Assembly (NCBI GenBank): GCA_025201865.1
Contig: MU602872.1
Coordinates: forward strand, 1 to 38,724
DNA length: 38,724 bases
Direction: 5' to 3'
Source: Ramicandelaber brevisporus
Lineage: Eukaryota > Kickxellomycota > Ramicandelaberales > Ramicandelaberaceae
Below, one piece after another: positions 1,193 through 38,724 of the stretch (its first letter is position 1; the number at the start of each line of letters is the position of its first letter). The notes under the pieces are model-generated. The model did not search any database. It saw only the letters and a program-made list of their open reading frames with translations, and was not told the origin of the DNA. The position numbers and the translations under genes are program-made.

Positions 1193-1380
1193 CCTTTTCT
1201 TTTCTTTTTTCAGTAAAGTGCACTTTTTATTTGATGAAGTGCACTCTTCTCTTTTTCGTTCATTAATTGACTTACTCCTTGAAATTCCATTATCATCTCC
1301 TTCGTTGTTGCTTTTGGCAATAATAAAAATGAATGACCACACTAACCGCTGTTGTTGACTCTCCCAACACGCTCCCTCAC

Positions 1381-1384
<4 letters not shown>

Positions 1385-1414
<30 letters not shown>
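1385..1414 (+). repeat. (TC)15 microsatellite in the chitin synthase promoter
   Basis: A perfect dinucleotide TC run of 30 bases lies about 140 bases upstream of the chitin synthase ATG. It sits in the 454-bp divergent intergenic region (1100-1553) shared with the ML-domain gene. Pyrimidine tracts of this kind precede several genes in the window. A TATA-like TATATAT follows at about 1446-1452. Confidence 0.85.
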
Positions 1415-1419
<5 letters not shown>

Positions 1420-1553
1420 TTCATTCTGTACCTGGCGACAGTCTCTATATATTCGTTCCTCAACAACATACTTTATTATTGTTACTGGCGTCGTCAGTAT
1501 TCGTTAATATTCTCGGTCAATCTCGATTTCGCGCACGTGTATTGACGACGATA

Positions 1554-4328
1554 ATGAACAACACTGATGGACACAATGGCGTGCGCCGTGGCCGCACACT
1601 GGTTCGCCATGACCGCCGTCAACAGCCCCACAGCCTTTTCAGCAGTCGCAACAATGCCACTTCCACCGCCGCCGCCGCCACTTCCTCAAAAGCAGGCCGT
1701 TTGATCACTGCCGAGCCCACTCGCGACAAATCCGCCTGGGTCATTTACAGTCGCATCATTTCATTTTGGGCACCTTCCTTTCTCCTTCGTAAGTTTGGCC
1801 TCGCTGAACCTGCAATGCGCCAGGCCTGGCGTGAGAAAATCGCCCTCTGCTTCATTGTCTTCAGTTTGTGTATAATGGTTGTGTACATGACAATGTTTCT
1901 GCAGAATTCATTTTGCTCAGCTAAGGAGCGCAGTTTGCAAGACAATGTGATCAGAATGGGAGTTGAGGGATACTTGGGATGGTTTGGAATTGCATATGCA
2001 GCAGCTGGCGTGTCGCTGCCCGCAGAGTTCCCGGTCAAGTCACTTCGAGGTCAGGATGTTACGCCATTGTTTATGAGAGATGTCAGCCCCGATGCATGTA
2101 ATTCGACAAGGTTGCCAGCAGCGTCGCAACAGTTTGCAGCAGCAAAGCTCAATCCCTGTCAAACTGCTGGCACCAGCTGCCCGTTTGGTAATTTTACGGC
2201 GTTTCGCAGCACATATGGATTAGTGCAGACTCAAAGTCGGATTGGATACGACTGGATTGATGTCAAATGGCCAATGATTGTTGTTGACGGGAATGTTCTC
2301 AACCTCGAACCCTACATTTCTGCATATCCGTCACCGCTTGATAATGACTTAATGGATACTGCGATTCGTATCGGTCGCGGTCGTACTGGGTATGATGCCA
2401 CTCGCTACTTTTACAGATTGCCGGTATTGAGAGATGCAGTTCATTGTGTAAAAGCCAAGTATTATGCCGGTAAACTTGCCAAAGCCACAGTGGGATGCTT
2501 CAGTGTAAACTTGTTCAACTTGATTGCATTGTTTGTTATTGCGAGCATTGTGTTTGCGAGATTCTTCATGGCACTGGCGTTTTCGTGGTTCTTGTCGTGG
2601 TCTCTTGTGAAAAGACCAACCACCTTATCAAAGCGGAGACCGGTGGCGGTGCCCCAAGGAATGCCGTGGGCTGCCACTAGCGGGTCACTGGCTGCACTCA
2701 ACAAGCGCCAGCCACTGTCGGCAAACCAAGCAGCATTGTTGGATAAGGATATGGACGAATTGTTTACAGTCATGCTGGTTACGTGCTATTCCGAAGGTGA
2801 GGCATCTGTGCGTAGCACTGTTGAATCACTGGCTGCAACGTCGTATCATGATTCTCGCAAACTACTATTCGTTGTGGCTGATGGCATCATCACTGGTTCT
2901 GGCAACGACCGCTCGACTCCTGACATTTGTATCGATCTCATTGAACAGGATCCTGAGCTTATCAATCCACAGCCGTGCTCGTACATTGCGGTTGCCGCTG
3001 GCACCAAACAGCTCAACATGGCTCGTGTCTATGCAGGTTGGTTCTCTCACAAAGGTCATCGCGTTGCCACAGTGGTCGTTGTCAAGTGCGGTTCGCCTGC
3101 TGAAGAGGGCAAGCCAAAGCCAGGTAACCGCGGCAAGCGTGATTCTCAAGTCATCTTGATGAACTTCTTCTCTCGTGTTGTTCATAACGATCGAATGACA
3201 CCGTTGGATTATGATTTGTTCTACAAGATTCACAAGCTGATGGGAATCACTCCAGACTATTTCGAGTTGGTATTGATGGTGGATGCAGATACAAAAGTGT
3301 ATCCGGATTCGCTGCAGAAGTTGGTTAACTGTATGCAAAACGATGAAATGATCATGGGATTGTGCGGTGAGACAAAGATTGCAAACAAGCGCGATAGCTG
3401 GGTGACTGCTATTCAGGTGTTTGAGTATTACATTTCGCATCATCTGGGCAAAGCATTCGAGTCTGTGTTTGGCGGTGTCACTTGCTTGCCAGGCTGTTTC
3501 TGCATGTATCGTCTCAAGGCTCGCAAAGGTGATAACGAATGGGTTCCAATTTTGACTAATCCAGAGATTCTGCAGGAATATCAGCAGAATGTGGTGGAGA
3601 CTCTTCATGAAAAGAACCTGCTGCTGCTTGGTGAAGATCGCTTCTTGACAACATTGATGCTACGTACATTCCCAAAGCGCAAAATGGTGTTCATGCCGCA
3701 AGCCATCTGCAAGACTGTTGTTCCAGACACATTCAAGGTGCTGTTGTCGCAGCGTCGTCGTTGGATTAACTCAACCATTCACAATCTGCTTGAGCTTGTT
3801 TTGGTTCGCAATCTGTGCGGTACATTCTGCTTCTCGATGCAGTTTGTCATCTTTATGGAACTGATTGGAACCACCGTTCTCCCAGCTGCTGTTGTAATGA
3901 CATATGTGCTAGTGTTCTCGATTGCTCGCGCATCGTACACTTCTCTGGCTTCATTTCTACCGCTCGTCATGCTGATTATGGTGTTATTCTTGCCTGGTAT
4001 TCTGATTCTGATTACCACTCGCAAGTGGATTTACATTGGCTGGATGTTTATTTATTTGCTTGCGCTGCCGATTTGGAACTTTGTGTTGCCAGTCTATGCT
4101 TACTGGCATTTTGATGATTTCTCGTGGGGTGAGACTCGCAAGGTTGATGGCGAAGCTAAAGACCACGATCACTCTCGCAAATCTGGTGAGTTTGATGGCA
4201 GTAAAGTACCGCTGCGTCGATGGGAAGATTATGAAAGACGTCGATTACGCCTCCAACAGAAACACCTTGCACCACATCAACAACAACAACAGCAGCAACA
4301 ACAGCAGCAACAAAAAACACACCACTAA
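1554..4328 (+). CDS. CHS3: Chitin synthase, class IV / Chs3-like (GT2)
   Basis: The product polymerises UDP-GlcNAc into chitin at the plasma membrane. The 924-residue frame has a basic Ser/Ala-rich N-terminus, a membrane segment near residues 96-117, an extracytoplasmic region, hydrophobic segments near 317-350, the GT2 catalytic core, and a membrane cluster near 758-860. Catalytic signatures are visible: MVDADTK near 577, CLPGCFCMYR, GEDRFLTTL near 694, and QRRRWINST near 733. The C-terminal DDFSWGETR is typical of chitin synthases. The EYYISHHLGKAFE context and sequence around QRRRW resemble class IV (division 2, yeast Chs3) enzymes. The ATG at 1554 is the first in frame. The protein is shorter than yeast Chs3 (about 1165 residues). 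It ends in a polyglutamine run just before a TAA, yet same-frame coding-like sequence continues to 4580. The true C-terminus may therefore be longer through an intron. Confidence 0.93.
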   Translation: MNNTDGHNGVRRGRTLVRHDRRQQPHSLFSSRNNATSTAAAATSSKAGRLITAEPTRDKSAWVIYSRIISFWAPSFLLRKFGLAEPAMRQAWREKIALCFIVFSLCIMVVYMTMFLQNSFCSAKERSLQDNVIRMGVEGYLGWFGIAYAAAGVSLPAEFPVKSLRGQDVTPLFMRDVSPDACNSTRLPAASQQFAAAKLNPCQTAGTSCPFGNFTAFRSTYGLVQTQSRIGYDWIDVKWPMIVVDGNVLNLEPYISAYPSPLDNDLMDTAIRIGRGRTGYDATRYFYRLPVLRDAVHCVKAKYYAGKLAKATVGCFSVNLFNLIALFVIASIVFARFFMALAFSWFLSWSLVKRPTTLSKRRPVAVPQGMPWAATSGSLAALNKRQPLSANQAALLDKDMDELFTVMLVTCYSEGEASVRSTVESLAATSYHDSRKLLFVVADGIITGSGNDRSTPDICIDLIEQDPELINPQPCSYIAVAAGTKQLNMARVYAGWFSHKGHRVATVVVVKCGSPAEEGKPKPGNRGKRDSQVILMNFFSRVVHNDRMTPLDYDLFYKIHKLMGITPDYFELVLMVDADTKVYPDSLQKLVNCMQNDEMIMGLCGETKIANKRDSWVTAIQVFEYYISHHLGKAFESVFGGVTCLPGCFCMYRLKARKGDNEWVPILTNPEILQEYQQNVVETLHEKNLLLLGEDRFLTTLMLRTFPKRKMVFMPQAICKTVVPDTFKVLLSQRRRWINSTIHNLLELVLVRNLCGTFCFSMQFVIFMELIGTTVLPAAVVMTYVLVFSIARASYTSLASFLPLVMLIMVLFLPGILILITTRKWIYIGWMFIYLLALPIWNFVLPVYAYWHFDDFSWGETRKVDGEAKDHDHSRKSGEFDGSKVPLRRWEDYERRRLRLQQKHLAPHQQQQQQQQQQQQKTHH

Positions 4329-21091: not shown

Positions 21092-24000
21092 TTATACGCG
21101 ACTGTAAGCATCATTCTCATTGACAAGACGTTGATATCTTTGCGGCCGCATGTAGTTGAGAGCAGTATCGAATACTCTTGTAATTCCGCCAAGTATCCAC
21201 CCATCGCGGCGTGATCTTTCGCCAGTGAACCATGAGCCTTGACTTGGAGCGCCATCTTCAACTGTCAAGTGTTGAGCGTCAGCAGTGGCAACATCAGACA
21301 GCCATCCAGATGGAGGCTCGGCGAGAACTGGCCGCTTGTACAGCTTAAGCAAAAGACTGCTGCAGACTACGCTGACGCTGGAGAGAGCCATTGCAGCACC
21401 TGCCCACATGGGAGGGATGCTGACATTCCAGGGTAAGAAGACACCCATCGCGAGCGGAATGCCAACCAGATTGTAGGAAGTTGCCCAGACAAAGTTCCAT
21501 CTAATTCTGCGGAAGATGTGCTGAGACAGATCAAGAGCAGTGACAATATCAGCCAGATCGGCTCGCATCAACACAATGGAGGCAGCTTCCATTGCAACAT
21601 CCGTACCCGAAGACACGGCAATGCCAACATTGGCTGCAGCCAGAGCAGGAGAATCATTGACGCCATCACCAACCATGGCAACAACGCGTGTCTTTGCCTT
21701 GGAGGCCGCTGAGTCATTGCTACCAAACTGCTGACGAGGAGGATCGCCAGGAGCAGTGTAGGTTTGAAGGCTTCTAATAAGAGCGGTCTTACCAGCAGGT
21801 AGAACACCAGCATGCACTTCGGATATGCCACATTCACGCGCAATGGCATTTGCAGTTCTGCGCTGATCTCCAGTAACCATTATTATTCTATAGCCCAGTT
21901 CACGAAGAGAGTAAATGACAGCTGGTGCCTCAGGTCTAATAACATCAGCCACAGCAATGCATCCAATGAATGAGCCATTGCATGCTGCCAGTACAACAGT
22001 CTTTCCCATAACTTCCAATTCGCCTCTCATTGAACGCCATGCAGCAGGCACTTTGATTCCTTGGTTTTCCAGCCAATTTTGATTGCCCACAATAACATCA
22101 ACTGGCACTGGCATTGGTGATTCTGTGACATTGACTAGTGCACGAATACCTGATCCAGCAGATGCTTCAAACTTGTCTACATGTGCAAACGGGAATGCAG
22201 TGCTATTGTTGGTGCCAGCGCTACTACCGATATGTCCATTCTGAGATAGATTTAGGTCGGCTTTGATATAGTTTGCAATGGCTCTTCCAATCGGGTGTTC
22301 AGATCTAGATTCAGCAGCACCAATGGCAATTAGCAGTCTTCTTCTAATCAACACATCGTTTCCATCGATTAGTCTGCAGTCAGATACACTCATTTGGCCC
22401 TTTGTTAAAGTACCTGTTTTATCAAATACTATAGTGTCCACGTTGTGAGCAGCCTCCAGTGGTTCACCACCCTTGATCAGGATTCCTAGCTGAGCACCTA
22501 CTCCAGTTCCCACCATAACAGCGGTTGGTGTACTTAAACCCAAGGCACACGGACAGGCAACTACAATAACAGCCACAGCCAGCTTAAGAGATGCAATAAA
22601 GTAACCAGAGCTATCGCGAGCTGCCTCCTTTTCCATCTTGATCATTTCAGGCAAGCTATCTGGATTTTTAATGGCAAAACATACAATCATCCAAGCAACA
22701 AAAGTAATGAAACCTAATACCAACACCATTGGAACAAAGTAGCCAGAAACAGTATCAGCAATCTGCTGGATTGGAGCTTTAGTAGATTGAGCATCCTGAA
22801 CTAATTTGACAACATGGGCTAAAGTGGTATCAGCACCAACTCTTGTCGCTCTCATTATAAAGTTACCTCCTCCGCAGTTAACTGTTCCACCCAAGACTGA
22901 ATCGCCTTTTACTTTATTGATTGGGACTGACTCGCCTGTAACCATGGATTCATCCACTCCACTTGATCCCTCAATGATAAATCCATCTGCTGGAATGCGC
23001 TCTCCGGGGAATACTCTTAGTGCATCTCCGGTCTGAACCAACTCTGTAGGGATTTTACGCTCATTGGTTATCGCTATACTTGATTCAGTAGTTAGCTTAT
23101 CTGGCGATGAATTTTCAGGAATTAGTCCCTCAACCAGCGTAGTAAAAGTCGGAGTCAGTGACATTAACTTTGATAGGGCAGATGATGCGCTGGATTTGGC
23201 TCTGTTTTCCAGATATCTTCCAATACTTACAAAACATATCAGCATCACAGACGTCTCAAACACCAATTTAGGCTTAATGTGGTAAGGGGAAACGAATGCA
23301 AATATAATCATAAATACAGAAAAGAAGAATGCAGCAGAAGTTCCGACTGCAACCAGTACGTCCATTGTGGCTGATCCATGTGTTAATGCTTTGTATGATC
23401 TGCTGTAAAACTGTCTGCCAACTCCAAACTGAACTGGGATTGTTAATAGCAATTGAATAACGTGTCCAACTGTAACCGCGCTGTTAAACAATGTCACATC
23501 TATAACTGGAATCGGCTTTTCGGCTGATGAGAAGTGTGGAAGTACTTTTGCCAAAATGAACACTGGAATGCCAAATGCCAGCGTTCTTAGCAATGCTTTG
23601 CGCCACTCTATAATTTCTTTAGTACGCTGAAGGGATTCAATCTGAGTTGAAGAGTCAGATGTGCGAACCATTGCGTCAAAGCCCAGCTGTTCAATGCTTC
23701 TAACAATATCACGCACACCAATAGTCTGAGGATCATACTCAACAATAGCTGATTCAGTCATTAGTGTTACGCATACTGATTGTATTCCATTTAACTTCTT
23801 TAACTCTCTTTCAATGGTTCCAACACAGGATGCACATGTCATTCCATACACATTCAATTCCACTTTACCCTGCCTGATATCACTCAGTAATCTTGCTTCA
23901 AATCCAAGTGACTCTATGGCTGATCCAACTTCGTAGTCTGTGATGATTGACGGCTGATACCATACCACTGCCTGCTGTGCCAATAGTGACACTGTCACAC

Positions 24001-24913
24001 TGACGATGCCTGCCGTGCCATGCAAGCCTCTTTCAATAGTAGCCACGCATGATGCACACGTCATCCCATTCACTTCAAGTGTTGCACATTTGGCTCCCTC
24101 CAGTGAAGCTGCCGGCTGAGATTGTCTCTGACCAGCTGTTGATGGCATTGCACGCTTATGGTGAATGGCCTCCTCTGCAACTGATGCCATGTTGGAGTCA
24201 ACCAATGTGCGTGCAGTAGATGCAGTCATATTTGAAATAACTGACATGTGCAGTGTGTCTGATGCAGTACTACCCTCGTTTTCTACAAAGAAACTTCCAG
24301 AATCAGTTCCATTGGAAGACGCAGCAGTTAATCGGCGTTCATTATTAATACTATTAGCATCAAATTGCACATCAAATCCGCAGTCTTCAATTCTCTCTTT
24401 AATCTGCTCAGCTGTAACAATATCTGAATCATATCTAACCGTTGCACTGCCCGGATGAAGCTCAACATCTGCCGATACAACTCCATCGAGATCATCCAGT
24501 GCTCCACGAATAGCCTTAACACATGATTGACACGTCATTCCCTCAACATCAAATTTGGTTTCAACCAATTGGAGTCCACTGGGATGACCATTGCCATTCG
24601 AGCTGACGGTTGTAGATGTGGTCGTAGATGTTGTAGATGTGGTCGTAGTTGCTGATGATGATGATGTAACTGCAACCAGGTCTGCATCAAAACCACAATC
24701 TTCAATTGCACTAACGTATAGCATTCTCGCAGCCATCCGGTCTTTGTCTGACTCTGAACCATTAATGACCTTGCGTCGAATGAATGCCTTGTTCTGTTCA
24801 AGTGACACATTGATAGAAATCAGCCCCTGCATACCTCCAAGCGCCGACTGAATAGCTCTGACACATGACTGACAAGTCATGCCCCGAACGTTGATCTCAA
24901 ACTGGTCCTCCAT
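21092..24913 (-). CDS. CCC2: P1B-type copper-transporting ATPase with four HMA domains (Ccc2/ATP7-like)
   Basis: The 1273-residue pump uses ATP to move Cu(I) into the trans-Golgi lumen or out of the cell. Four heavy-metal-associated domains lie at the N-terminus. The first two carry GMTCQSC (near residues 11 and 125) and the next two GMTCASC (near 283 and 356). The catalytic part is complete: MVTGESVP actuator loop, VACPCALGLSTP with the CPC metal site at 787-789, DKTGTLT with the phosphorylated Asp at 831, SEHPIGRA, MVTGDQRRTA and VGDGVNDSPALA near 1080. The final membrane pair (WNFVWATSYNLVGIPLAMGVF) is present. It is one exon. The start at 24913 is the first ATG; upstream in-frame sequence comes from a CT-rich leader with no ATG. 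Yeast Ccc2 has two HMA domains, so four is a richer, animal-like arrangement. Confidence 0.96.
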   Translation of the reverse strand: MEDQFEINVRGMTCQSCVRAIQSALGGMQGLISINVSLEQNKAFIRRKVINGSESDKDRMAARMLYVSAIEDCGFDADLVAVTSSSSATTTTSTTSTTTSTTVSSNGNGHPSGLQLVETKFDVEGMTCQSCVKAIRGALDDLDGVVSADVELHPGSATVRYDSDIVTAEQIKERIEDCGFDVQFDANSINNERRLTAASSNGTDSGSFFVENEGSTASDTLHMSVISNMTASTARTLVDSNMASVAEEAIHHKRAMPSTAGQRQSQPAASLEGAKCATLEVNGMTCASCVATIERGLHGTAGIVSVTVSLLAQQAVVWYQPSIITDYEVGSAIESLGFEARLLSDIRQGKVELNVYGMTCASCVGTIERELKKLNGIQSVCVTLMTESAIVEYDPQTIGVRDIVRSIEQLGFDAMVRTSDSSTQIESLQRTKEIIEWRKALLRTLAFGIPVFILAKVLPHFSSAEKPIPVIDVTLFNSAVTVGHVIQLLLTIPVQFGVGRQFYSRSYKALTHGSATMDVLVAVGTSAAFFFSVFMIIFAFVSPYHIKPKLVFETSVMLICFVSIGRYLENRAKSSASSALSKLMSLTPTFTTLVEGLIPENSSPDKLTTESSIAITNERKIPTELVQTGDALRVFPGERIPADGFIIEGSSGVDESMVTGESVPINKVKGDSVLGGTVNCGGGNFIMRATRVGADTTLAHVVKLVQDAQSTKAPIQQIADTVSGYFVPMVLVLGFITFVAWMIVCFAIKNPDSLPEMIKMEKEAARDSSGYFIASLKLAVAVIVVACPCALGLSTPTAVMVGTGVGAQLGILIKGGEPLEAAHNVDTIVFDKTGTLTKGQMSVSDCRLIDGNDVLIRRRLLIAIGAAESRSEHPIGRAIANYIKADLNLSQNGHIGSSAGTNNSTAFPFAHVDKFEASAGSGIRALVNVTESPMPVPVDVIVGNQNWLENQGIKVPAAWRSMRGELEVMGKTVVLAACNGSFIGCIAVADVIRPEAPAVIYSLRELGYRIIMVTGDQRRTANAIARECGISEVHAGVLPAGKTALIRSLQTYTAPGDPPRQQFGSNDSAASKAKTRVVAMVGDGVNDSPALAAANVGIAVSSGTDVAMEAASIVLMRADLADIVTALDLSQHIFRRIRWNFVWATSYNLVGIPLAMGVFLPWNVSIPPMWAGAAMALSSVSVVCSSLLLKLYKRPVLAEPPSGWLSDVATADAQHLTVEDGAPSQGSWFTGERSRRDGWILGGITRVFDTALNYMRPQRYQRLVNENDAYSRV

Positions 24914-26116
24914 CTCCAAAAGAAACAGCCGCTTTCTCTCTCTTTGTGTGTCTCTCTGTGTCACTCACTTGAGCTACTGGACGGCCGCTGTTACCGCTGC
25001 TACTGCTGCTACTGTCGCCTCTGTTATTGTTGTTGTTGTTGAACGACGACGACGGCGGCTCAGAAATGAGAAAGTAGAACTGCTTTGCGTTTCTGTGAGA
25101 ACGTGCTAGTTGTGTGTGTGGCAAAAAAAAAAGAGAGGAAAAGAATAGAAAAGGGCTGACGAAAACGATAGAAAAGGGACAGGCTGCACACAAAAAGACG
25201 GAAGAAGCTTGCTTTCGAAAAGGACGACGACGCAGTCCAAAAATAGTTGAGTGCACCGTGAGCCAGCGAGCAAGCGAGTGAATGAGTGAGTGAGTGAGTG
25301 TGAGTGAGGAGTTATGTTATGGACGACGTGGACAAAACACAGCAAAGCAATAGGAGGAGGAAATACCGATACCGATATTGATTATTAACGGAGTCAAATT
25401 TAGACGAGCCCGAACCTGGCTGGTGCAAGGGCTGATTATGAGGGGTAGGAGATTGCTAGATAATGGCGTTATAAGCGAAGCTGGTAGTCAAACGATGAGG
25501 AAGTCGAATGGATAAGGAAGGAAGAAAGAAAGAAAGAAAGAAAAAAGAGAGAGATAGTTGATGCAAGTCTCTATCCATATAATAGAGAAGGGCTGGACTG
25601 TGAGGTATTTTTTTTACAGCTGCATTTGACTGACCGATTGAGGCATTTGCAAACATGCAGAGACAGACAGACAGAGAGAGAGGGAGATTGACGCTCTCAT
25701 ATCGCGAGCCACATGGTTCCACTATTTTTTTTTTGCGAGAACACATGAAATGGTGGATGATTTGTTCACCGATAATCCCGCGCGTACGATGTATACGATA
25801 CGAAGGAGCAGCATGGATATGAGCCATGTTGTTCCCTGCGAATGATACAGGATGTACGATAAAGGTATAGTTCACTTTGACAGTTCGGACAACCTTCCCT
25901 CCTGGAAGAACGTGCTTCCATTTTGACCCTTGGAGAAGAGGAACAGAACAGAACAGAACAGAACAAAGCGTGGGTTTCTGGGCCAAGCCCTGTCTCTCTC
26001 TCTCTCTGTCGAGTGAGTCTTGGTTTGTCGCCTGTCCTCCACTCCACACTGTCAGCGTTTGCCAACACTAGCAGATTACCTACCCTATTTTTAAACCTTG
26101 TGTTGACGCCAAAGAG
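24914..26116. other. Divergent intergenic region between copper ATPase and SEC9-like gene
   Basis: This 1.2-kb stretch has no convincing gene. It holds several simple repeats: GAGT-type near 25284-25310, GAAA-type near 25520-25543, and five copies of GAACA at 25941-25965. A minus-strand frame of 197 codons (25456-26049) begins with a non-ATG codon and is low complexity. The region must contain both promoters. I searched by eye for a clear yeast-type copper response element and did not find a convincing one. Confidence 0.5.
25941..25965 (+). repeat. (GAACA)5 pentanucleotide repeat
   Basis: Five perfect copies of GAACA lie about 150 bases upstream of the SEC9-like gene. Confidence 0.85.
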
Positions 26117-29705: not shown

Positions 29706-30956
29706 TTAGATCTCTTGATGCTCAAATGCATAGAGCACTTCTGGATGAATGCGCGAGTCGCGTGGATACAGGTACATTCTTGCTCTCGTGCTTTGCATCA
29801 ACTGTGGCAATGGCTTATAACTCTCAACCGCCTTCTTTGGATTGCGCGTGACATCGCCTGCATCTTCCATCGTGCGCACTTGTCTCATAAACGACGGGTC
29901 CACTGCATACGACTTGATCTTGCCCTGCTTGATCAGCCACACAAACTCCATCGTGCGCACTTGTCTCATAAACGACGGGTCCACTGCATACGACTTGATC
30001 TTGCCCTGCTTGATCAGCCACACAAACTCCAAATCCAACGGCGAATGAGGAGTATCACGCAGCGGTGGCAGCATCTTTGGAATAGCTGACATATTGACAG
30101 CATACGCGTGCGCACACTGCGGATGTGTAGCACGGAACAGCTTGAGATCAAAGTCCACCAGTGTGTCCTGCTGTGCTTCGCTTCCACAATGTCCAAAGTG
30201 GATCGTATCCCAGCTGCCATCGCCAACCTTCTCAATCCGCTTCAAGACACGTCTTACCAGATACTGAATGTCGAGCTCCATGTCAACATCATCTTCCAGA
30301 ACCAAAAATGTCTTGATTTTGTCTTGCTTGCGGTATGCATCTTCCCATGCCTTCAAATGGCTGCGCAGCACGGCGTACTGAGCAGGACGCAACTCGTGAG
30401 CGGTGGATGGCTTGGAGGATTCAACTTCGCTGCCCTCGAAGGCGTCAATGAATGTGGCTTCAACATTGAGGAATGCCAGCATGTCTTCCATCGAAGAGCG
30501 ACGGTCCTTGCGGCGAGGGAGATTGATGACATAGACAGCGTCAAACCCGAGATAGTGGATGTTCTGAGGGAGAACTGGACCGAGCTGAGGGATTCTGTGT
30601 TTGCCATACGCGATTTGAGGAGTGGGTGGGGATGGCAGCTGAGGCTCTTGGCCATGCTCCTGAACCACAGGCGGTGGCGCTGGAACATCGTGCTCAATGA
30701 TTGCAGCAGCTGCAGGAGGAGGAGAAGGAGATGCAGCGGGAGACGGTGGGCAGCTGCAGATGAACGAGTACACTTGGCGACCAATGAATGCAGATAGCAG
30801 TACTACGAGAAGGTAGACTACTGGGTGTACACTCTTGTTGCCATTGCGACGGCCAGGGGAATACGATTGCCGACCAGCAGCATTGTCGCCGCCAATTCCA
30901 ACGAAACCCTCAGGGTCTGAGTCGTCCGAATCGTGATGCTTGCGGTTCCGAACCAT
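29706..30956 (-). CDS. GT25-like type II membrane glycosyltransferase
   Basis: The 416-residue protein resembles glycosyltransferase family 25 (LPS/procollagen galactosyltransferase-type). It has a short cytosolic tail, one signal-anchor helix near residues 44-63 (VVYLLVVLLSAFIG), a Pro/Ala-rich stem, and a lumenal catalytic domain, as for a Golgi enzyme. Family signatures are VYVINLPRRKDRR near 138 with SMEDML, an AWEDAYR region, LVLEDDVDME near 220 as the likely metal/nucleotide-sugar site, and WDTIHFGHC. Near the C-terminus a 27-residue segment (FVWLIKQGKIKSYAVDP and flanks) occurs twice in a row because of a perfect 81-bp duplication, which keeps frame. Without it the protein would be 389 residues. 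The acceptor substrate is unknown. The ATG at 30956 is the first in frame. Confidence 0.85.
   Translation of the reverse strand: MVRNRKHHDSDDSDPEGFVGIGGDNAAGRQSYSPGRRNGNKSVHPVVYLLVVLLSAFIGRQVYSFICSCPPSPAASPSPPPAAAAIIEHDVPAPPPVVQEHGQEPQLPSPPTPQIAYGKHRIPQLGPVLPQNIHYLGFDAVYVINLPRRKDRRSSMEDMLAFLNVEATFIDAFEGSEVESSKPSTAHELRPAQYAVLRSHLKAWEDAYRKQDKIKTFLVLEDDVDMELDIQYLVRRVLKRIEKVGDGSWDTIHFGHCGSEAQQDTLVDFDLKLFRATHPQCAHAYAVNMSAIPKMLPPLRDTPHSPLDLEFVWLIKQGKIKSYAVDPSFMRQVRTMEFVWLIKQGKIKSYAVDPSFMRQVRTMEDAGDVTRNPKKAVESYKPLPQLMQSTRARMYLYPRDSRIHPEVLYAFEHQEI
29866..30027 (-). repeat. Perfect 81-bp tandem duplication inside the GT25-like gene
   Basis: Bases 29866-29946 and 29947-30027 are identical, and identity continues for four more bases past the second copy. 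The unit equals 27 codons, so the reading frame is kept. Zero divergence means either a very recent event or an assembly artefact. The duplicated segment is a conserved-looking part of the catalytic domain (LDLEFVW...DPSFMRQ), where an extra copy would be expected to disturb folding. Confidence 0.97.
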
Positions 30957-31361
30957 CTCTCGCTAGGCTGTGTAGTCGCTGAGGGAGTATGTTGCAGAGT
31001 CAAGGTCAAAGTCAAAGTCAAAAAGAAGAAGAGGATCAACACAGTGGGAAAAGGAACCACATGAGAGAGAGAGAAAGAGAGAACAAGTTCGGCTCAAGTA
31101 GATCTGGTTTCGTCTGGTAAACTCCGCCACCAGAATTGACAGACATCCCTAGCACTCCAATGAGCGCTTTACTCATGAACAACTGTTATTAAAAAAAGGA
31201 GCACACATACAAAAGTAATGATAATAATAAAAAAGGATGGATAGATAACTAGGGCATACACAAACAACAAGAGAGTGAGTAAATGGGGGAGTAAAGGGGA
31301 GGGAGTAAAAGAGAGTAAAAAAAAAGAGTGGGATGACGTAACTAATTAAAGAAAGCAACCA
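30957..31361 (-). other. Spacer between GT25-like and C2H2 genes
   Basis: These 405 bases lie upstream of the GT25-like gene and downstream of the zinc-finger gene, both on the minus strand. On the minus strand it is pyrimidine-rich (TCTCTCTC near 31066-31080, CTTTTACTCCC near 31290-31320). This agrees with the CT-rich promoters seen elsewhere. No gene is supported. Confidence 0.5.
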
Positions 31362-32840
31362 TCAAGATTGCCGATTTGGAGTGTTATTAAAGTTTGGCAA
31401 TGGATACGGCAGAGTGCTGTTGCTATTGCTGCCGCCATTTGGACTTCCGGCCATTAACGAAGACAATGACCGTGGATCGATGCCCCCGGTGGTAGCTGTT
31501 GAGCCTGCAGCAGTTGGCGAATGCTGCATAAACTGCTCAATGTTGAACAGAGGCGGTGCCGCTGCCACAGCTGAGCGAGTGTGGGCTGCAGTCTGTGGAA
31601 ACTGCTGCTGTAGTGACTGTGAGGGGATGCCGGGGAGTTTGGGTAACTGCTGCTGAGGCTGATGCGCCAATGCCGATGGCAAGCCTGATTGGAATGTGGG
31701 ATTAAGCAGCAGATTCTTTGTAGACTGCTGCTGCTGATGCTGTGAAGCGGTTGTAAAATGGTGGCTAGTCAGACCAGTATCGTGCTTGACGGGCATGGCT
31801 GGATACAGGTTGCTGGATGTGACGTTTGGATAGAGAGTTGGCAGGTGTGGGGTTGACAGAATCGAGCCGGGACGGACGACTGTGCCAGATGAGAGAATGG
31901 TTGGTTTGTCGAGGACATGCGAGCCTGTGCTAAAGAACACATCGTCGTCATGATGCAGCTTCCGGTGCTGCTGCTGCTGTTGCTGATGCTGAGGCTGACC
32001 GGTTTCATCATTGTCAAAATCACTAGTCTCAGCTTCGGAGTCTTCATCGTCTTCTTCAGATCTGGCTGCGTTGTTGGATGCCACCATCGAGCCCGACACC
32101 GGCTCATTGCTCAAAGCGCTCTTTGGCTTGCGGCCACGTCTCGCCGATCCTCTACCCGGCCCAGCCGATGACGCAGCCATCGCCGTCGACAGGTAGCTTG
32201 GTGATGCCGCGTTTGACGACACTGGCGACAGCTTTCCATCTCCATTGACAATCACCGCCCGGTTGCTGCTTCTCGGCGGTATGTATCCATGCATATTCTT
32301 TTTGTGAGTGGTCAGGTTCCCTTGCTGCGTAAAAGTTCTTCCACAATCTGGATAGTCACATACAAACGGCTTTGCATCTGCCTGGTGGGTGCGCTGGTGG
32401 GTTCTCAAATTTCCCATTTGCGTGAACCCTTTGCCACAATCGTCACAAAGGTACGGTTTGCTGCCAGAGTGACTGCGTTCATGCGTGCGCAAGTTGCCCT
32501 GTTGGGCAAAGGCCTTGCCGCAGCCGGGGTGTGAGCATATGTACGGGCGGAATCCAGGGTGATGCCGCTCGTGGGCCATGAGCTCTTTGCGCTGTCGGAA
32601 CAATTTAGGACAGCCATCAAATGTGCACTTGAAGGCCTTGCCAACAAACCCGGCGCCAGTTGTAATCTCGCCGTCCTCGACAGCCGTTGAGAGATCTATT
32701 GATGGATCTGTAGTGTTTGGCTGAGCAACACCAGTAACAGCTGGACCAACGGCTCCTGGAACAGGTACTAATGGCTGCTGCTGCTGTTGTTGTTGCTGTT
32801 GTTGTTGTTGATGCTGGGACGGTGTTGTCATCGTTCTCAT
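31362..32840 (-). CDS. C2H2 zinc-finger transcription factor with four tandem fingers
   Basis: The 492-residue protein has a polyQ tract near the N-terminus, four contiguous C2H2 fingers near residues 69-185, and a long Ser/Gln/Pro-rich C-terminal region probably used for regulation. The fingers are visible as CTFDGC...HERHH, CSHPGC...HERSH, CDDC...HQRTH and CDYPDC...HKKNMH, with TGEKP-like linkers altered to SGSKPY and ADAKPF. Fingers 2-4 have nearly the same recognition helix (QQGNLRT, QMGNLRT, QQGNLTT), so they should read a repeated triplet. A basic RRGRKPK stretch near 255-265 could be a nuclear signal or AT-hook-like element. The frame is open upstream to 32939, but the first ATG is at 32840 (another at 32831). 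It is divergent from the bS6m gene with 234 bp between starts. Confidence 0.9.
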   Translation of the reverse strand: MRTMTTPSQHQQQQQQQQQQQQPLVPVPGAVGPAVTGVAQPNTTDPSIDLSTAVEDGEITTGAGFVGKAFKCTFDGCPKLFRQRKELMAHERHHPGFRPYICSHPGCGKAFAQQGNLRTHERSHSGSKPYLCDDCGKGFTQMGNLRTHQRTHQADAKPFVCDYPDCGRTFTQQGNLTTHKKNMHGYIPPRSSNRAVIVNGDGKLSPVSSNAASPSYLSTAMAASSAGPGRGSARRGRKPKSALSNEPVSGSMVASNNAARSEEDDEDSEAETSDFDNDETGQPQHQQQQQQHRKLHHDDDVFFSTGSHVLDKPTILSSGTVVRPGSILSTPHLPTLYPNVTSSNLYPAMPVKHDTGLTSHHFTTASQHQQQQSTKNLLLNPTFQSGLPSALAHQPQQQLPKLPGIPSQSLQQQFPQTAAHTRSAVAAAPPLFNIEQFMQHSPTAAGSTATTGGIDPRSLSSLMAGSPNGGSNSNSTLPYPLPNFNNTPNRQS

Positions 32841-33074
32841 ATTTTTGTTTCTTTTATTTTTGGCTTTTCTTCTGTTTCTGCTATTTTTTGTACCAAAACT
32901 TGCCTGTACACACACACAACCACACACAACCACACACACTTCAAGCGAGATCCAGCGCCGACTCGGCAGAGTGAATCAGCAGCTAAAAAAGCCAAAAGAA
33001 AAACTTGCTGCTAACAAAAATCAGCCGTTGAAGCTCTCGACTTATACAAAAAAAGAAGAAGAAGAAGGTCAGCG
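32841..33074. promoter_or_regulatory. Short bidirectional promoter region (C2H2 factor / bS6m)
   Basis: Only 234 bp separate the start codons of the divergent zinc-finger and mitochondrial bS6 genes. Both core promoters and 5' UTRs must fit here. It contains a CACACAACCA-type repeat (32909-32940) and A-rich tracts near the bS6m start. Confidence 0.55.
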
Positions 33075-33410
33075 ATGCCTCTGTTCGAGTTAGTGTGTAT
33101 CACAAAGGCCGGCCTCGCGTCGAACAACATGGCCGATTTGCTTCGCTTATCTGCGGGTGTCGTTCTTTCTCGTGGCGGCGTTGTTCGCGGATTCACCAAC
33201 CTGGGTGAGCGCCTGCTTCCACATCGCATTCGGAGTCGCCAGGTATGGCACAGCGAGGGCAAGTACTGGATGATGCACTTTGACTGCAACCCAGCTACCA
33301 TGGCCGAGCTTCGTCAGACTCTCAAGCTGGATCCAAGAGTACTGCGGCCGAGCATTTTGAAGTTGGGAGATCGGTTGTCAGACAGTGTGCGCCTTCCTCA
33401 AAAGCTGTAA
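33075..33410 (+). CDS. MRP17: Mitochondrial small-subunit ribosomal protein bS6m (Mrp17)
   Basis: The 111-residue protein matches the bS6 family, part of the small subunit of the mitochondrial ribosome, where it pairs with bS18m on the platform. The start MPLFELVCITKAG is the first beta-strand typical of S6. LLRLSAGVVLSRGGVVRGFTNLG matches the following helix and strand. YWMMHFDCNPATMAEL matches the central strand before helix 2. The length is normal for fungal Mrp17, and as in other members there is no long cleavable presequence. The ATG at 33075 is the first in frame. It has no introns. A 431-bp spacer separates it from the phosphorylase-kinase subunit. Confidence 0.9.
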   Translation: MPLFELVCITKAGLASNNMADLLRLSAGVVLSRGGVVRGFTNLGERLLPHRIRSRQVWHSEGKYWMMHFDCNPATMAELRQTLKLDPRVLRPSILKLGDRLSDSVRLPQKL

Positions 33411-33841
33411 TCCACATTAGAAACGAATAGAGCTAGCCATTTAATGAGTATTCACATATTATAGGGAAAAAAACGGATTAGAAGATAGATTGCTGTTAAT
33501 GAATGCACCAAACCAGTTCAGCATCCCTTGAAACAGATTTGCTGTTATCAGGAATTGTCGATTGTACTTCCCATTCCGGTCTACCTTCGTCCTTGCGAGT
33601 TGGGTCCGAATGACGGCCGAGATTGTAAGTCTTTCGTGACTTCTCTATTGGATGGCGATAGCTCGGCCGACATCGGTCGATATCGATGAAGGTGGCGGTG
33701 GTGAGGGAGATTTTCGCGCGCGTCTCTTTTATACTCTCGACTGTTGTGTAAACACGCACACCCACAAACGCACTCTGCCATCTCTATTGTTTCATTCCCT
33801 CGCTCACAACAGCATCTCCACAACGTCCCCCCCCCGTCAAG
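33411..33841 (+). other. Promoter region of the phosphorylase-kinase subunit gene
   Basis: This 431-bp spacer holds the bS6m 3' UTR and the promoter of the downstream gene. Overlapping minus-strand frames of 80-89 codons (33496-33823) have no recognisable product. A TTTTATACTC stretch at about 33727-33736 is TATA-like, roughly 110 bases before the ATG. Confidence 0.5.
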
Positions 33842-36800
33842 ATGATTCCACCACCAGCTGCTGCAGCTACTTCAGCCTCGACAAGCACTACCAGGGCCGC
33901 CGCCGCCTCTGCTTCTGCCGCTGCCTCTGCTGTACCGTTTGGACCACCGCCTATGCTGCCTCCGCATACTGCCTCGCCAGCAGCTCGGCTTGACTACTAC
34001 TTCCGTTTTGTGCAGGCTATCATTCTGGCGAGACAAAATGCCGTAACTGGACTGATTCCAGCATCCGTGGCCGTCACTGCGCATGGAGATTATCGTGACG
34101 CGTGGGTCCGTGACAATGTTTACTCGATTTTGGCAGTGTACGGTCTTGCCATCGCATACCGCCGCATGGACGATGATAACGGCCGCGCATACGAACTCGA
34201 GCAGAGCGTGATAAAGCTGATGCGTGGTCTCTTGATGTGTATGATGCGCCAGTCCCACAAGGTTGAGAAGTTCAAGCACACCCAGTCACTGCGAGATGCG
34301 CTGCATGCCAAGTACAACACTGCCACCACTGACACTGTTGTCGATGATCGCAGCTGGGGCCATCTGCAGATTGATGCAACGTCCATCTTCATTTTGATGC
34401 TTGCGCAATTTACAGCCAGCGGAATGCGGATTGTCTTTACGCAAGATGAGGTTGACTTTGTGCAGAACTTGGTGTACTACATTGAGCGCGCTTACCGAAC
34501 ACCAGAGTTTGGATTATGGGAACGTGGTAACAAGTCAAACCATGGCGAGCCGGAACTCAACTCGTCGTCAATCGGTATGGCTGTGGCTGCAATGCGCGCA
34601 ATCAACAATATCAATCTGTTTGGGCCGCACGGTGGACCGGCTTCCGTGATCCATGTCCTGCAGGATGAAATTGCTCGCAACGTCAGCACCTTGTCATCAG
34701 CCCTGCCACGCGAGTCGTACAGCAAAGAAACAGATGCAGCCCTGCTCAGCGTCATTGGCTATCCTGCGTTTGCCATTAATGACGTGAATCTGCGCTCTCG
34801 CACTCGCAACGAAGTCATCAACAAACTGGCTGGCAACTATGGCTGCAAGCGATTTCTGCGTGATGGCCATCAGTGCGTCATTGAAGACCGCACACGCATG
34901 TGGTATCACCCGAAGGAACTCAAGGCATTTGAGCACATTGAGTGTGAGTGGCCACTGTTCTTCACGTATTTAATCCTGGACGGCATCTTTGGTGGCGATC
35001 CAGCCATGGTGGCCACGTACCGTGACAAGCTCCAGCCTCTGCTGGTTGACTCAATGAGTATGCCCGACCTGGATCGCTTCATACCGCATGACGTCAACGA
35101 GCAGCGTCGCCAATCCATCTCCACTCCATTGGGCAGCAGTGCACCGCAATCGCCCATCATTGCTCGCGACCATTTTTATCTTGTGCCAGAGCTGTATTAT
35201 GTGCCGATGGAGTTTGTTGATGCTGAGCGCGCTAATCCACAGACTCAAGCACGACTGCCAAACGACAATGTGCCGCTTGTATGGGCCAACTCGCTGTACA
35301 TCCTGGGCTGCTTGCTGCAAGAACAGCTGGTTACCACTGCTGAGATCGATCCACTCAATCTGCGTGTCAACGCTGGCAAGTCTGAGGCGCGTCGTAACGT
35401 CATCGTGCAGCTGGTGTTATTGGCTGAGGATGAGCGCCTGCAGGCACGGCTGGCTACATTTGGCTTGGAGACTCAAACTCTGGCACAAGTTGCACCGGTC
35501 CAAGTCTGCCCGCCCAGTGCTCTCGTCGAAGTTTACAAGACGCTTGGGGCCAATTCCAAGCTTGGCTTGACCGGCCGTCCAGCTCGCTCAATGGGCACAC
35601 TCAGCACTTGTCGCCTGTATCGCGTCCAGGGTCGTTTGTATGCATTCACTCCGCATTTCATGAACCGCGAAGAGTACTATCTGTCGTCTGACAATGACTA
35701 TCTCATCTTCTTGTTTGAAAATGAGCTGGCATTTATCAACAAGAATCACTCTGATACTGGCCGTCCAACAATGACCATCATGCTCACCAACGACATGTTT
35801 GCCGACTTGCCCAATCTCTCTGCTCGCTCCACTTCTGCTCGCTCCACCTCTGTAGGCACTCCGGGTGTTGGTGTTGGTGTTGGTGCTGGTGCTGGTGCTG
35901 GTGGTGAATCCTATACTGTCCAGCAAGACAGGTTACAATCGAGTCGTCATCGCAACTTGCTCACTCTCATGATGAACCTGCGTAGTGGTTCACTCAATGG
36001 CGTTCGTGTTCGTCTTGGCCGCATGCAAGAGTTTGTAACTACCAGCTATGTCCAGAGTCTCGATTTCCTGGTGCTGAAGAATGAAATTAACTGGCAGAGT
36101 GTGCTCCAAGCTGCGACTACAAAGCGCAAGCATCGCAAGACTGAATTTACATTGCGCCAAGACCGTGACTTGGAATCCGCACTAACTGCCGGCCATCATC
36201 CAGTCCATAGCCCGAGCTATTTCCAGTCGCATGGATTGGACTCTGCTCCGACACCGCCGCGTCCAGGCTCTCGCCATGGATATCCAGCGAGTGGCCACAT
36301 GTCACGCCGTCACTCATTCATCAACTTCAATGCACTGTCAACCGCTCTGGTCGCTCCACTTGGAGATGGTCCGAAGAGCGAGTCTCGCCGTGCTGGCCTA
36401 TCGTCTGTTGGATCCACCACGTCGATGCTATCGGCCCTGGAGGAATTGACATTGCAGAGCTTCCGTCTCAAGGAACATGCTCGTACTGGTCAGTCTCAGC
36501 AGCAGGGACAGCAGCAGCATCAGCAGCAGCATTTGATGGAGTCAGACCAAAATGCGTATGGCACTGGTTATGATGGAATTCCTGAACAACTATCGCTTGT
36601 GTTGCGCGATCCGCAGAGTACTGACGCTGCCATTGCCGCACTCTCTGCCTCGTCTAACTTGTTTGATCAGGCTGACTTGCTGCACTATTTGCATTCATGC
36701 CATGGTCTTGATTACCAAATTGTCGATCCAGTGACTGGCGGTGCTGCTTCAATTCGTACATTGGTTAGTCAAGTGTACAGCCGTGCCATTGAACATCGTT

Positions 36801-38724
36801 TATGGAGTGTAGTTCGTCAGACAGCAGGCATTCTTCGCAAAGTGGTTTCATCGCTGGCTATCAATGTGACTGATTTGAATTTGATTCAAAAGGTTCTGAC
36901 TGTTGGACATGGCCCAGAAGATGAGACGCAGATTGATCGACCACTTCAGCCAGATGCATTATCCGAGTTAATCTACAGAAATTGCGATGACGAAGTGCGT
37001 GAAGGTCCATTGATTCAGGAAATGATTCATATATTGGGTGCATTGGCGAGAGCTAACAGATCGGTATTAGATGGAATATCCAGATTAAGAATACACAATT
37101 TGATTATTGCAATGAGAGAGGAAATTGGCAGAGTTAGAGCAGTTGATGAAATTGGCGCTTTGGATATATTAATGTCACTGAGTCCATTTGAGATCAAATC
37201 ACTATTAACGACTGTGTTGAGTGGTCCTTTGCTCTCAAGTGTAAACACTTCTTGGTTTGCATCTGGTTTCTACGGACTCCAACACGGTGATACAATCAAT
37301 GAGGATACTGATGGCTACAATCTTGATAATGATAATGGCACAGGTGGAACAATTGAAGGCAAACACCACCAGTCAGCCAATCTCATCAATAAACAGTTGC
37401 AACAGCAGCCAGTGCGGACAGTGAGTGTTCGTGATCATTCGCCCGATTTGTCTCCACAGGCCACGCCTGTTGTTAAGCCACAGCGTCCCATTCCACGCTC
37501 CTCAGCTGATAATGGTGCTATCACACTCACCATCACTGCAAAGTCTGCAGGATACAGCACTGGCTCACCAGCAGCTCGCATCGAAATCAATAGTATCGCA
37601 GCTCCAGTATGCAATCGTGGATTGAATGTTGTATTTATTGATCCAATTGAACAAATTGTGATGGATGTCATATCGTTTGATACATGCTTCTCTCACGAGC
37701 AGAGTGAGCTGTTTGCGCGTTATGTTGAGATGGCTGATAGTGGAACGATTGTGGTTGTGGCTGCCATGGATGACTGTGCCGAACGACTGGGTGATTCTGC
37801 TCGCGCTGCATGTGCTACTTTGGGCAGCCAGCATGTCTCTAATGTTGGATATCGTGATTCGTGGTGTTTTATTGGCCAGAAAGGTGCCCAAGTTGGGTCA
37901 GCTGTTGAATCTCACGTCCCAGCTCACCTCAATACTGGAACCGACACCATCTCTCGTACATTCAACCTGAGTGCATTGGCGCGCCAAGCTATGGGCATCT
38001 TTGATGACGAGGAGTCTGCTTCTTTAGATGCTGAGCAGCAGCTTCAGCAAACAGCGATGCTCTCGTCTACCCGCACTCCACGTTGTCTGCTTGGCTCTTC
38101 TCTTGGCCGCTGGCTGCGTCGCCGCAAGAATGATGGCGCAGTTGGTCGTGTTCCGCCACATTTCTACACCAAAGTCTGGTCTGTTCTCGAAATCCAAACA
38201 ACAACAGGTATCAAAGTCGGCTCGTATTTGCTGGATCGAGATGTGATTTACGAGAAGACTCCGGAAGAACTCAACTTTGCTGTGTTGTCTGAAGCTGCAG
38301 CCGACAATATCGTTAATCCAGCGGTGCGGAGCCTGATTCAGGAAATGACGCAAGTAATCGAGTTCTTGGGCAGATGGGTAGCCCAAAACGATGACGATTC
38401 AAATGGATATCTCGGTCTGGACAATGAAGGTGAAGTGAATGTGCTGGATTTGGTTGAAATGGCTATTAAAGAGTTTTGGGACGACTGGTCAGTCGAGCCA
38501 ACTCATGCTGCAGCAGCTGCATCTCAAGCTACCGCGACTCAGCTCGACGATACTGTTGCCTCGGAGCCTGTGATATCCGGTATAACCAGCACAGCGCCAT
38601 CTCTGCCACCACCGGTCAGCGCGACGGCCAGCCAGACTGTCGCAGCTCCTGCCGCTGGCAGTTCTGCTCGAGCTCACAGTCCAGAACACTGCGCTAATGT
38701 CACGGTGGCCTACAAGCTGCATCG
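33842..38724 (+). CDS. PHKA: Phosphorylase kinase regulatory (alpha/beta-type) subunit with embedded ILEI/FAM3-like domain, 3' partial
   Basis: The frame is open for 1627 codons to the window edge. The protein belongs to the large regulatory subunits of glycogen phosphorylase kinase, which restrain the catalytic gamma subunit and relay calcium/calmodulin and phosphorylation signals to glycogen breakdown. After an Ala/Thr/Ser-rich leader of about 50 residues comes the GH15-like (glucoamylase-like) domain, with GDYRDAWVRDNVYSILAV near residue 82, DDRSWGHLQIDATSIF and NHGEPELNSSSIGMA. A helical body follows, with inserts (Gly/Val repeat near 675-685, polyQ near 885-900). The family's C-terminal block is clear: LGRWLRRRKNDGAVGRVP near 1420, then FYTKVWSVLE and EKTPEELNFAVLSE. 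Just before it, residues about 1227-1363 form a domain foreign to known subunits, read as ILEI/FAM3. Human PHKA has about 1240 residues. The ATG at 33842 is the first of the frame. Confidence 0.93.
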   Translation, partial: MIPPPAAAATSASTSTTRAAAASASAAASAVPFGPPPMLPPHTASPAARLDYYFRFVQAIILARQNAVTGLIPASVAVTAHGDYRDAWVRDNVYSILAVYGLAIAYRRMDDDNGRAYELEQSVIKLMRGLLMCMMRQSHKVEKFKHTQSLRDALHAKYNTATTDTVVDDRSWGHLQIDATSIFILMLAQFTASGMRIVFTQDEVDFVQNLVYYIERAYRTPEFGLWERGNKSNHGEPELNSSSIGMAVAAMRAINNINLFGPHGGPASVIHVLQDEIARNVSTLSSALPRESYSKETDAALLSVIGYPAFAINDVNLRSRTRNEVINKLAGNYGCKRFLRDGHQCVIEDRTRMWYHPKELKAFEHIECEWPLFFTYLILDGIFGGDPAMVATYRDKLQPLLVDSMSMPDLDRFIPHDVNEQRRQSISTPLGSSAPQSPIIARDHFYLVPELYYVPMEFVDAERANPQTQARLPNDNVPLVWANSLYILGCLLQEQLVTTAEIDPLNLRVNAGKSEARRNVIVQLVLLAEDERLQARLATFGLETQTLAQVAPVQVCPPSALVEVYKTLGANSKLGLTGRPARSMGTLSTCRLYRVQGRLYAFTPHFMNREEYYLSSDNDYLIFLFENELAFINKNHSDTGRPTMTIMLTNDMFADLPNLSARSTSARSTSVGTPGVGVGVGAGAGAGGESYTVQQDRLQSSRHRNLLTLMMNLRSGSLNGVRVRLGRMQEFVTTSYVQSLDFLVLKNEINWQSVLQAATTKRKHRKTEFTLRQDRDLESALTAGHHPVHSPSYFQSHGLDSAPTPPRPGSRHGYPASGHMSRRHSFINFNALSTALVAPLGDGPKSESRRAGLSSVGSTTSMLSALEELTLQSFRLKEHARTGQSQQQGQQQHQQQHLMESDQNAYGTGYDGIPEQLSLVLRDPQSTDAAIAALSASSNLFDQADLLHYLHSCHGLDYQIVDPVTGGAASIRTLVSQVYSRAIEHRLWSVVRQTAGILRKVVSSLAINVTDLNLIQKVLTVGHGPEDETQIDRPLQPDALSELIYRNCDDEVREGPLIQEMIHILGALARANRSVLDGISRLRIHNLIIAMREEIGRVRAVDEIGALDILMSLSPFEIKSLLTTVLSGPLLSSVNTSWFASGFYGLQHGDTINEDTDGYNLDNDNGTGGTIEGKHHQSANLINKQLQQQPVRTVSVRDHSPDLSPQATPVVKPQRPIPRSSADNGAITLTITAKSAGYSTGSPAARIEINSIAAPVCNRGLNVVFIDPIEQIVMDVISFDTCFSHEQSELFARYVEMADSGTIVVVAAMDDCAERLGDSARAACATLGSQHVSNVGYRDSWCFIGQKGAQVGSAVESHVPAHLNTGTDTISRTFNLSALARQAMGIFDDEESASLDAEQQLQQTAMLSSTRTPRCLLGSSLGRWLRRRKNDGAVGRVPPHFYTKVWSVLEIQTTTGIKVGSYLLDRDVIYEKTPEELNFAVLSEAAADNIVNPAVRSLIQEMTQVIEFLGRWVAQNDDDSNGYLGLDNEGEVNVLDLVEMAIKEFWDDWSVEPTHAAAAASQATATQLDDTVASEPVISGITSTAPSLPPPVSATASQTVAAPAAGSSARAHSPEHCANVTVAYKLH
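37520..37930 (+). other. ILEI/FAM3-like domain inside the phosphorylase-kinase subunit
   Basis: About 135 residues here match the ILEI (interleukin-like EMT inducer) domain by its landmarks in order: ITAKSAGYSTGSPA, RGLNVVFID, VISFDTCF, GTIVVVAAMDDCAERL, SARAACATLGS, and VGYRDSWCFIGQKG. The same order is seen in animal FAM3 proteins (RGINV, FD, GTIVL..DDGA.KL, AR..LGS, FRDNW.F.GGKG). In the POMGNT1 stem this fold binds beta-linked GlcNAc-type sugar. It is joined in frame to the kinase-subunit sequence on both sides by Ser/Pro/Gln-rich linkers. The positions of the edges are approximate. A direct ligand role is inference. Confidence 0.85.

Follow-up and report, generated by a model that had tools for sequence, protein, structure and literature searches.

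Gene and Domain Layout at the Locus

The window analyzed in this work, i.e., the whole stretch of 38,724 nucleotides (positions 1–38,724) of contig MU602872.1 of Ramicandelaber brevisporus (Kickxellomycota), ends with a gene for a protein of the phosphorylase kinase (PhK) alpha/beta family that carries an inner ILEI domain. Its plus-strand frame contains no stop from position 33752 to 38722, at the window end (open reading frame list). Counted from the first in-frame ATG (33842), the PhK-like part comprises 1627 residues (33842–38722), with the C-terminus truncated by the contig end.

The application of hmmscan with the Pfam profiles revealed a GH15-type (glucoamylase-like) match at residues 49–1084 (33986–37093; 288.2 bits, above the cut-off), an ILEI domain (PF15711) at residues 1259–1349 (37616–37888; 82.8 bits, E-value 2.5e-23, curated cut-off 27), and a KPBB_C match (PF19292) at residues 1396–1506 (38027–38359, the D5 region; 49.7 bits, cut-off 27). 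The GH15-like N-terminus together with KPBB_C places the protein in the PhK alpha/beta family, and the nearest solved proteins in a PDB sequence search were human PHKA (733.5 bits) and PHKB (602 bits). Over residues 1246–1373, this search also matched FAM3C, FAM3A, POMGNT1, FAM3B and a cell-surface hyaluronidase. The first-pass annotation of this DNA had described a PhK alpha/beta subunit and an ILEI domain in one unbroken frame, with the latter just before the C-terminal block, and had expected PF15711 between the two PhK-type matches; all of this was confirmed. The landmarks that it had named are likewise in frame and in order: RGLNVV (37616–37633), FDTCF (37676–37690), GTIVVVAAMDDCAERL (37742–37789), LGSQ (37820–37831), YRDSWCF (37850–37870), GQKG (37874–37885) and, in the C-terminal block within the KPBB_C match, RRRKNDGAVGRVP (38117–38155).

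Further upstream, the equivalents of the catalytic Glu residues lie in the motifs WERG (34517–34528) and PELY (35186–35197), as judged from motif position and column alignment. The mostly helical D4 domain (residues about 975–1131, 36764–37234; model residues 1–157) is followed by a D4-ILEI linker (37235–37480; model residues 158–239) predicted with low confidence (predicted local distance difference test, pLDDT, <50). Within the searched R. brevisporus assembly (17.9 Mb, 510 contigs), the ILEI profile gave a single match (37616–37888, E-value 6.4e-24), none of 14 control genomes was matched, and this gene was the only KPBB_C locus.

Predicted Fold and Sugar-Contact Residue Equivalents of the ILEI Domain

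The structure predicted for the R. brevisporus ILEI domain, which was modelled alone as 37511–37960, has the ILEI/FAM3 fold and resembles the POMGNT1 stem. In the model spanning D4, ILEI and D5, the two flanking domains superpose on human PHKA (8jfk_A) in a 3D alignment. Domains of this type that bind N-acetylglucosamine (GlcNAc) are those of the POMGNT1 stem, Fam3L2 and FAM3C, and the GlcNAc-contact residues of POMGNT1 are Arg129, Asp179, and Arg207 (PMC9802357, a study of worm and mammal proteins). Their equivalents in the R. brevisporus protein are Arg1259 (37616–37618), Asp1310 (37769–37771), and Arg1338 (37853–37855), assigned by alignment with numbers counted by hand. According to the alignment counts, this triad is intact in 141 of 142 PhK-type relatives, and the equivalents of Asp179 and Arg207 are both kept in all 142. 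In the Gamsiella protein (P0120), the gene model lacks part of the ILEI domain (two part-matches, with a gap at the Arg129 position).

The control consisted of P0003 and P0030, two proteins that each contain five ILEI repeats. Their repeats still match the profile, and Arg207 is lost in 7/10 and Asp179 in 4/10 of them, while the Arg129 equivalent is kept in 10/10. Judged only by eye, the C-terminal part of P0003 resembles a caspase.

Distribution of the GH15-ILEI-KPBB_C Architecture

When the ILEI stretch was used as the query, seven proteins were matched: the gene itself, the multi-ILEI protein P0003, and five further fungal proteins that share all three domains. With a query comprising ILEI and D5 of a chytrid protein, both ILEI and KPBB_C were present in 118 of the best 120 of 297 matches, and the remaining two were P0003 and P0030, which have no GH15. 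As such a query favours ILEI carriers, another one without ILEI was chosen, i.e., residues 1–600 of a blastocladiomycete protein, and ILEI was still present in 114 of the best 120 of 7018 matches; four of the six ILEI-free proteins were 886–927 residues long and had no KPBB_C mark, and the remaining two were full-length chytrid proteins (P0125 and P0136). The proposed check of conservation among fungi showed the architecture to be common to most sampled early-branching fungi. The idea that it is special to R. brevisporus, or confined to one species, was rejected, since the homologue listings show the same domains in other fungi.

The named hosts presumably comprise chytrids, blastocladiomycetes, zoopagomycetes, mucoromycetes and mortierellomycetes, which is how we group most of the names, and they include the aphelid Amoeboaphelidium (counted within Fungi in the NCBI taxonomy). 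No Dikarya name occurred among the best 120 of 297 or the best 120 of 7018 matches, some of which are unnamed, and no ILEI was found in human PHKA and PHKB or in the sampled bacterial relatives. It should be stressed that the protein database annotation already marks the three domains on these proteins. In a literature search based on titles and abstract openings (for some queries only the best of longer lists), no treatment of ILEI in PhK or of fungal PhK alpha/beta was found, and a PhK alpha/beta protein with ILEI in the D4-D5 joint was not seen described there.

Comparison with Animal and Bacterial Relatives

Human PHKA and PHKB (8jfk) share with the fungal protein the GH15-like start, the KPBB_C end and D4 and D5 domains that align in 3D, but they have no ILEI between D4 and D5. 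At this joint, PHKA1 contains an unaligned stretch of 76 residues, which we take to be phosphorylated, and PHKB has none. The first-pass annotation had assigned a phosphorylated variable region to the animal subunits at this position, which agrees with PHKA1 in the presence of the stretch and not with PHKB. It had further suggested that phosphorylation there may be replaced or joined by sensing of a sugar; a replacement was not supported: PHKB has nothing there, the bacterial relatives have 31–37 residues, and the D4-ILEI linker of R. brevisporus holds three SP/TP motifs (by eye), so phosphorylation may be kept. The C-terminal CaaX farnesylation site of the animal alpha and beta subunits was not seen as a shared feature among the relatives, of which 5/148 have Cys at position −4 (some rows are partial, and the window protein is cut). 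Moreover, a single alpha/beta locus in the R. brevisporus assembly stands against separate human PHKA and PHKB, though some species are listed twice.

Homologs of PhK alpha/beta (L013–L061) were also observed in many cyanobacteria as well as in a small number of other bacteria. These bacterial GH15-KPBB_C proteins (of Calothrix, Thiomicrorhabdus, and others) share 48–69% identity, mostly 50–56%, with a fungal one in the best segment, and have no ILEI. Both catalytic Glu equivalents are kept in 45/45 of them; in the fungal set, the residues corresponding to PHKA1 Glu185 and Glu371 are kept in 142/142 and 146/146 non-gap rows of 148.

The gene neighbours of three bacterial loci were scanned, and a glucokinase gene was found at L059, while the two cyanobacterial loci (L013 and L022) gave no lead. 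The class to which Thiomicrorhabdus belongs was represented by 369 genomes with 14 KPBB_C loci, and in seven of these, that of the seed genome included, a glucokinase gene lies directly downstream on the same strand (L062, L067 (cut by the locus end), L068, L069, L070 (the genome of L059), L072, and L073), which hints that the bacterial homolog may release glucose. Near the other 48 KPBB_C loci, mostly cyanobacterial, no glucokinase was found within the flanks examined, some of which are short.

As for ILEI itself, FAM3A/B/C resemble the fungal domain in fold and in sequence (57.4 bits for FAM3C). POMGNT1 and the FAM3 proteins function in the secretory path; the former, with its stem (5ggf, 5ggl, 5ggj), is a glycosyltransferase and the latter are small secreted proteins, whereas the fungal ILEI is an inner domain of a large PhK-type protein.

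Partner Genes and Neighbouring Genes in R. brevisporus

The search for a gamma subunit in the assembly yielded 98 kinase-type matches, the best-scoring one being 38% identical. None was clearly gamma-type in this incomplete assembly; the matches without stops end at or before query residue 300, and two with stops reach 314 and 340. A CaMK1-like kinase (L004), examined as a candidate for gamma, had chains of CaMK1 as its best PDB matches, and the best 60 listed included no chain of PhK gamma. Neither glycogen phosphorylase (PF00343) nor glycogen synthase (PF05693) was matched in the assembly, which is incomplete: out of four universal control proteins, only two were clear, i.e., TPI (60%) and PCNA (42%, one stop lying within the stretch), while RAN gave only 26–34%, as expected of other small GTPases, and eIF5A 35% over a part. 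Since control proteins are also missing in clear form, the absence of gamma, phosphorylase and synthase says nothing, and its reading as a sign of an orphan subunit was dropped. Within each of three contig pairs (234/465, 344/484, and 164/275), the kinase matches had the same scores, suggesting that the assembly contains duplicated or haplotype contigs.

A debranching enzyme was matched in the assembly with 364.8 bits. Furthermore, an OGT-type gene of the GT41 family is present in the genome; it scores 366.4 bits against PF13844, and its match to human OGT (about 300 bits) exceeds that to SPINDLY (about 102 bits). At this locus (L081; contig 274, 15500–22500), a frame rich in tetratricopeptide repeats overlaps the OGT-type start in another frame, perhaps as one intron-split gene.

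Apart from the PhK-like gene, the window carries a chitin synthase gene (PF03142, 840 bits; 1359–4328, plus strand), located about 30 kb away and not claimed to be linked with the ILEI finding, as well as minus-strand genes for a P-type ATPase with several HMA domains (21092–24964), a GT25-type glycosyltransferase (29706–30962), and a C2H2 zinc-finger protein (31362–32975). The Rfam scan of the window at gathering scores gave no matches.

Proposed Function and Alternative Explanations

We regard as somewhat probable that the gene encodes a PhK alpha/beta protein of early-branching fungi in which ILEI was inserted into the D4-D5 joint as a sugar-binding-type module tuning the alpha/beta protein. 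Its firm part is the domain with its predicted fold and place, its presence throughout several fungal phyla and in an aphelid, and the conservation of the three GlcNAc-contact residues. From the earlier interpretation, the true ILEI domain, frame, position, predicted fold, and contact residues were retained. Its confinement to this fungus was corrected, whereas replacement of phosphorylation, sugar sensing and an action on glycogen breakdown through a kinase were not demonstrated.

The ILEI domain would be a tethered module, probably cytosolic. Its fold, its triad and its relatives suggest that it may bind sugar through Arg1259, Asp1310, and Arg1338, the likeliest ligand being beta-GlcNAc-like or of the glucose type. 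Because ILEI hangs on the D4-D5 joint, binding would shift D5 or the attachment of the protein to glycan, and such a shift might in turn tune its role in alpha-glucan metabolism. As for the output, both a kinase (in animals, the gamma tail is held by D5-alpha) and the glucoamylase-like site of the protein itself are retained as possible readings. In a more specific version, which we consider improbable, ILEI would read cytosolic beta-linked GlcNAc, e.g., O-GlcNAc made by OGT, so that the hexosamine state would feed into glycogen use in early-branching fungi; such a ligand could share the compartment of ILEI, since the genome has the OGT-type gene.

Several observations weigh against the favoured reading. 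The D4-ILEI-D5 model reaches a predicted template modelling (pTM) score of only 0.63, and the long linkers on both sides of ILEI were predicted with low confidence; the model therefore allows no claim that ILEI touches D4 or D5. The control for the triad is limited to 10 repeats from two proteins. No signal peptide is evident by eye in the R. brevisporus protein (no predictor was run), whereas POMGNT1 and FAM3 belong to the secretory path. ILEI is absent from two full-length relatives, i.e., those of Gorgonomyces (P0125) and Synchytrium microbalum (P0136); either a loss of the domain or its omission from these gene models could account for this. P0125 keeps a sequence resembling what follows ILEI in others, which fits both a loss and an exon skipped in the model.

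Other results weaken a plain kinase reading in particular, i.e., the non-conserved Tyr593 equivalent, the invariant Glu pair, the glucokinase neighbours and a tree of D1. Tyr593 of PHKA1 docks the gamma N-lobe (PMC10978961). Its equivalent is Ser in the R. brevisporus protein (by eye), which therefore lacks this mark of a gamma-binding alpha, and it is Tyr in 2/146 relatives of the fungal set (position counted by hand). As Tyr is found in 1/45 bacterial homologs, this residue marks alpha and not the whole family. In the D1 tree, built from 13 fungal, 8 bacterial, and 2 human sequences (a quick and a careful version), human PHKA1 clusters with the bacterial sequences (99/97) and the fungal ones lie outside that cluster, PHKB forms a very long branch, and 10 of 20 inner branches are open. 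Simple fungal-animal orthology is not supported by this tree, from which no history was drawn, and with PHKA1 placed among bacteria and PHKB on such a branch, a carry-over of animal PhK function to fungi is not backed. The proposed action on glycogen breakdown via a kinase was not supported: Tyr593 is not conserved, and neither a gamma-type kinase nor glycogen phosphorylase was found in the incomplete assembly.

The same evidence bears on a rival that agrees on ILEI and differs on the output, namely that the fungal protein is a cytosolic glucoamylase-like enzyme, not (only) a kinase subunit, with ILEI as a carbohydrate-binding module targeting glucan; the bacterial homologs may be such enzymes as well. 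The Glu pair, glucokinase in half of the loci of one class, the rarity of Tyr593 and the missing gamma-type kinase speak for it, but the assembly is incomplete, the remaining 48 loci show no glucokinase, and in human PHKA, which has the same Glu pair, hydrolase activity was not found (PMC10978961), so we treat this explanation as a serious contender that is nevertheless rather doubtful. Less credible, and in our view unlikely, is that ILEI is a protein-binding or dimerisation module that binds no sugar and whose conserved pocket is structural or a relic. FAM3C has been solved as a dimer (5lc4), the family core may include the RG and RDSW motifs, which is consistent with Arg129 kept in all control repeats, and the dimer contact made by D5-beta in human PhK (PMC10978961) makes a dimer element near D5 plausible; against this, the control repeats often lose Arg207 and Asp179, and the PhK-type domains always keep both.

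There is hardly any room for an artefact, i.e., a chance frame, an intron or an assembly join. The gene does reach the contig end, and the public R. brevisporus protein of the same gene (P0002) has a foreign N-terminus and a shifted C-terminus. Just 5' of the PhK-like gene, a plus-strand frame for a mitochondrial-type ribosomal protein S6 was observed (33015–33410; PF01250, 71.4 bits); in the P0002 model this S6 frame is joined to the PhK protein, and the reading frame is abandoned close to the contig end, so that both ends of the model look wrong. However, P0002 carries the ILEI segment at 100%, and the same domain order, with residue-level conservation, was found in more than 100 proteins of other records; these homologs refute a chance frame or artefact.

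Significance

From animals, PhK is familiar as a textbook regulator. The presented analysis shows that early-branching fungi keep a PhK alpha/beta protein with a sugar-binding-type domain at the joint beside the part that, in animals, accommodates the kinase tail in the case of alpha and forms a dimer contact in the case of beta. The literature found does not appear to discuss this combination of domains, although each is already annotated in the protein database. If ILEI binds sugar, it would provide a direct metabolite input into the protein, of a kind that we have not found described for PhK. Moreover, taken together with the ILEI-free bacterial relatives, some of them encoded beside glucokinase, the fungal protein opens a way to test whether PhK-type proteins ever carry out catalysis at their glucoamylase-like site.
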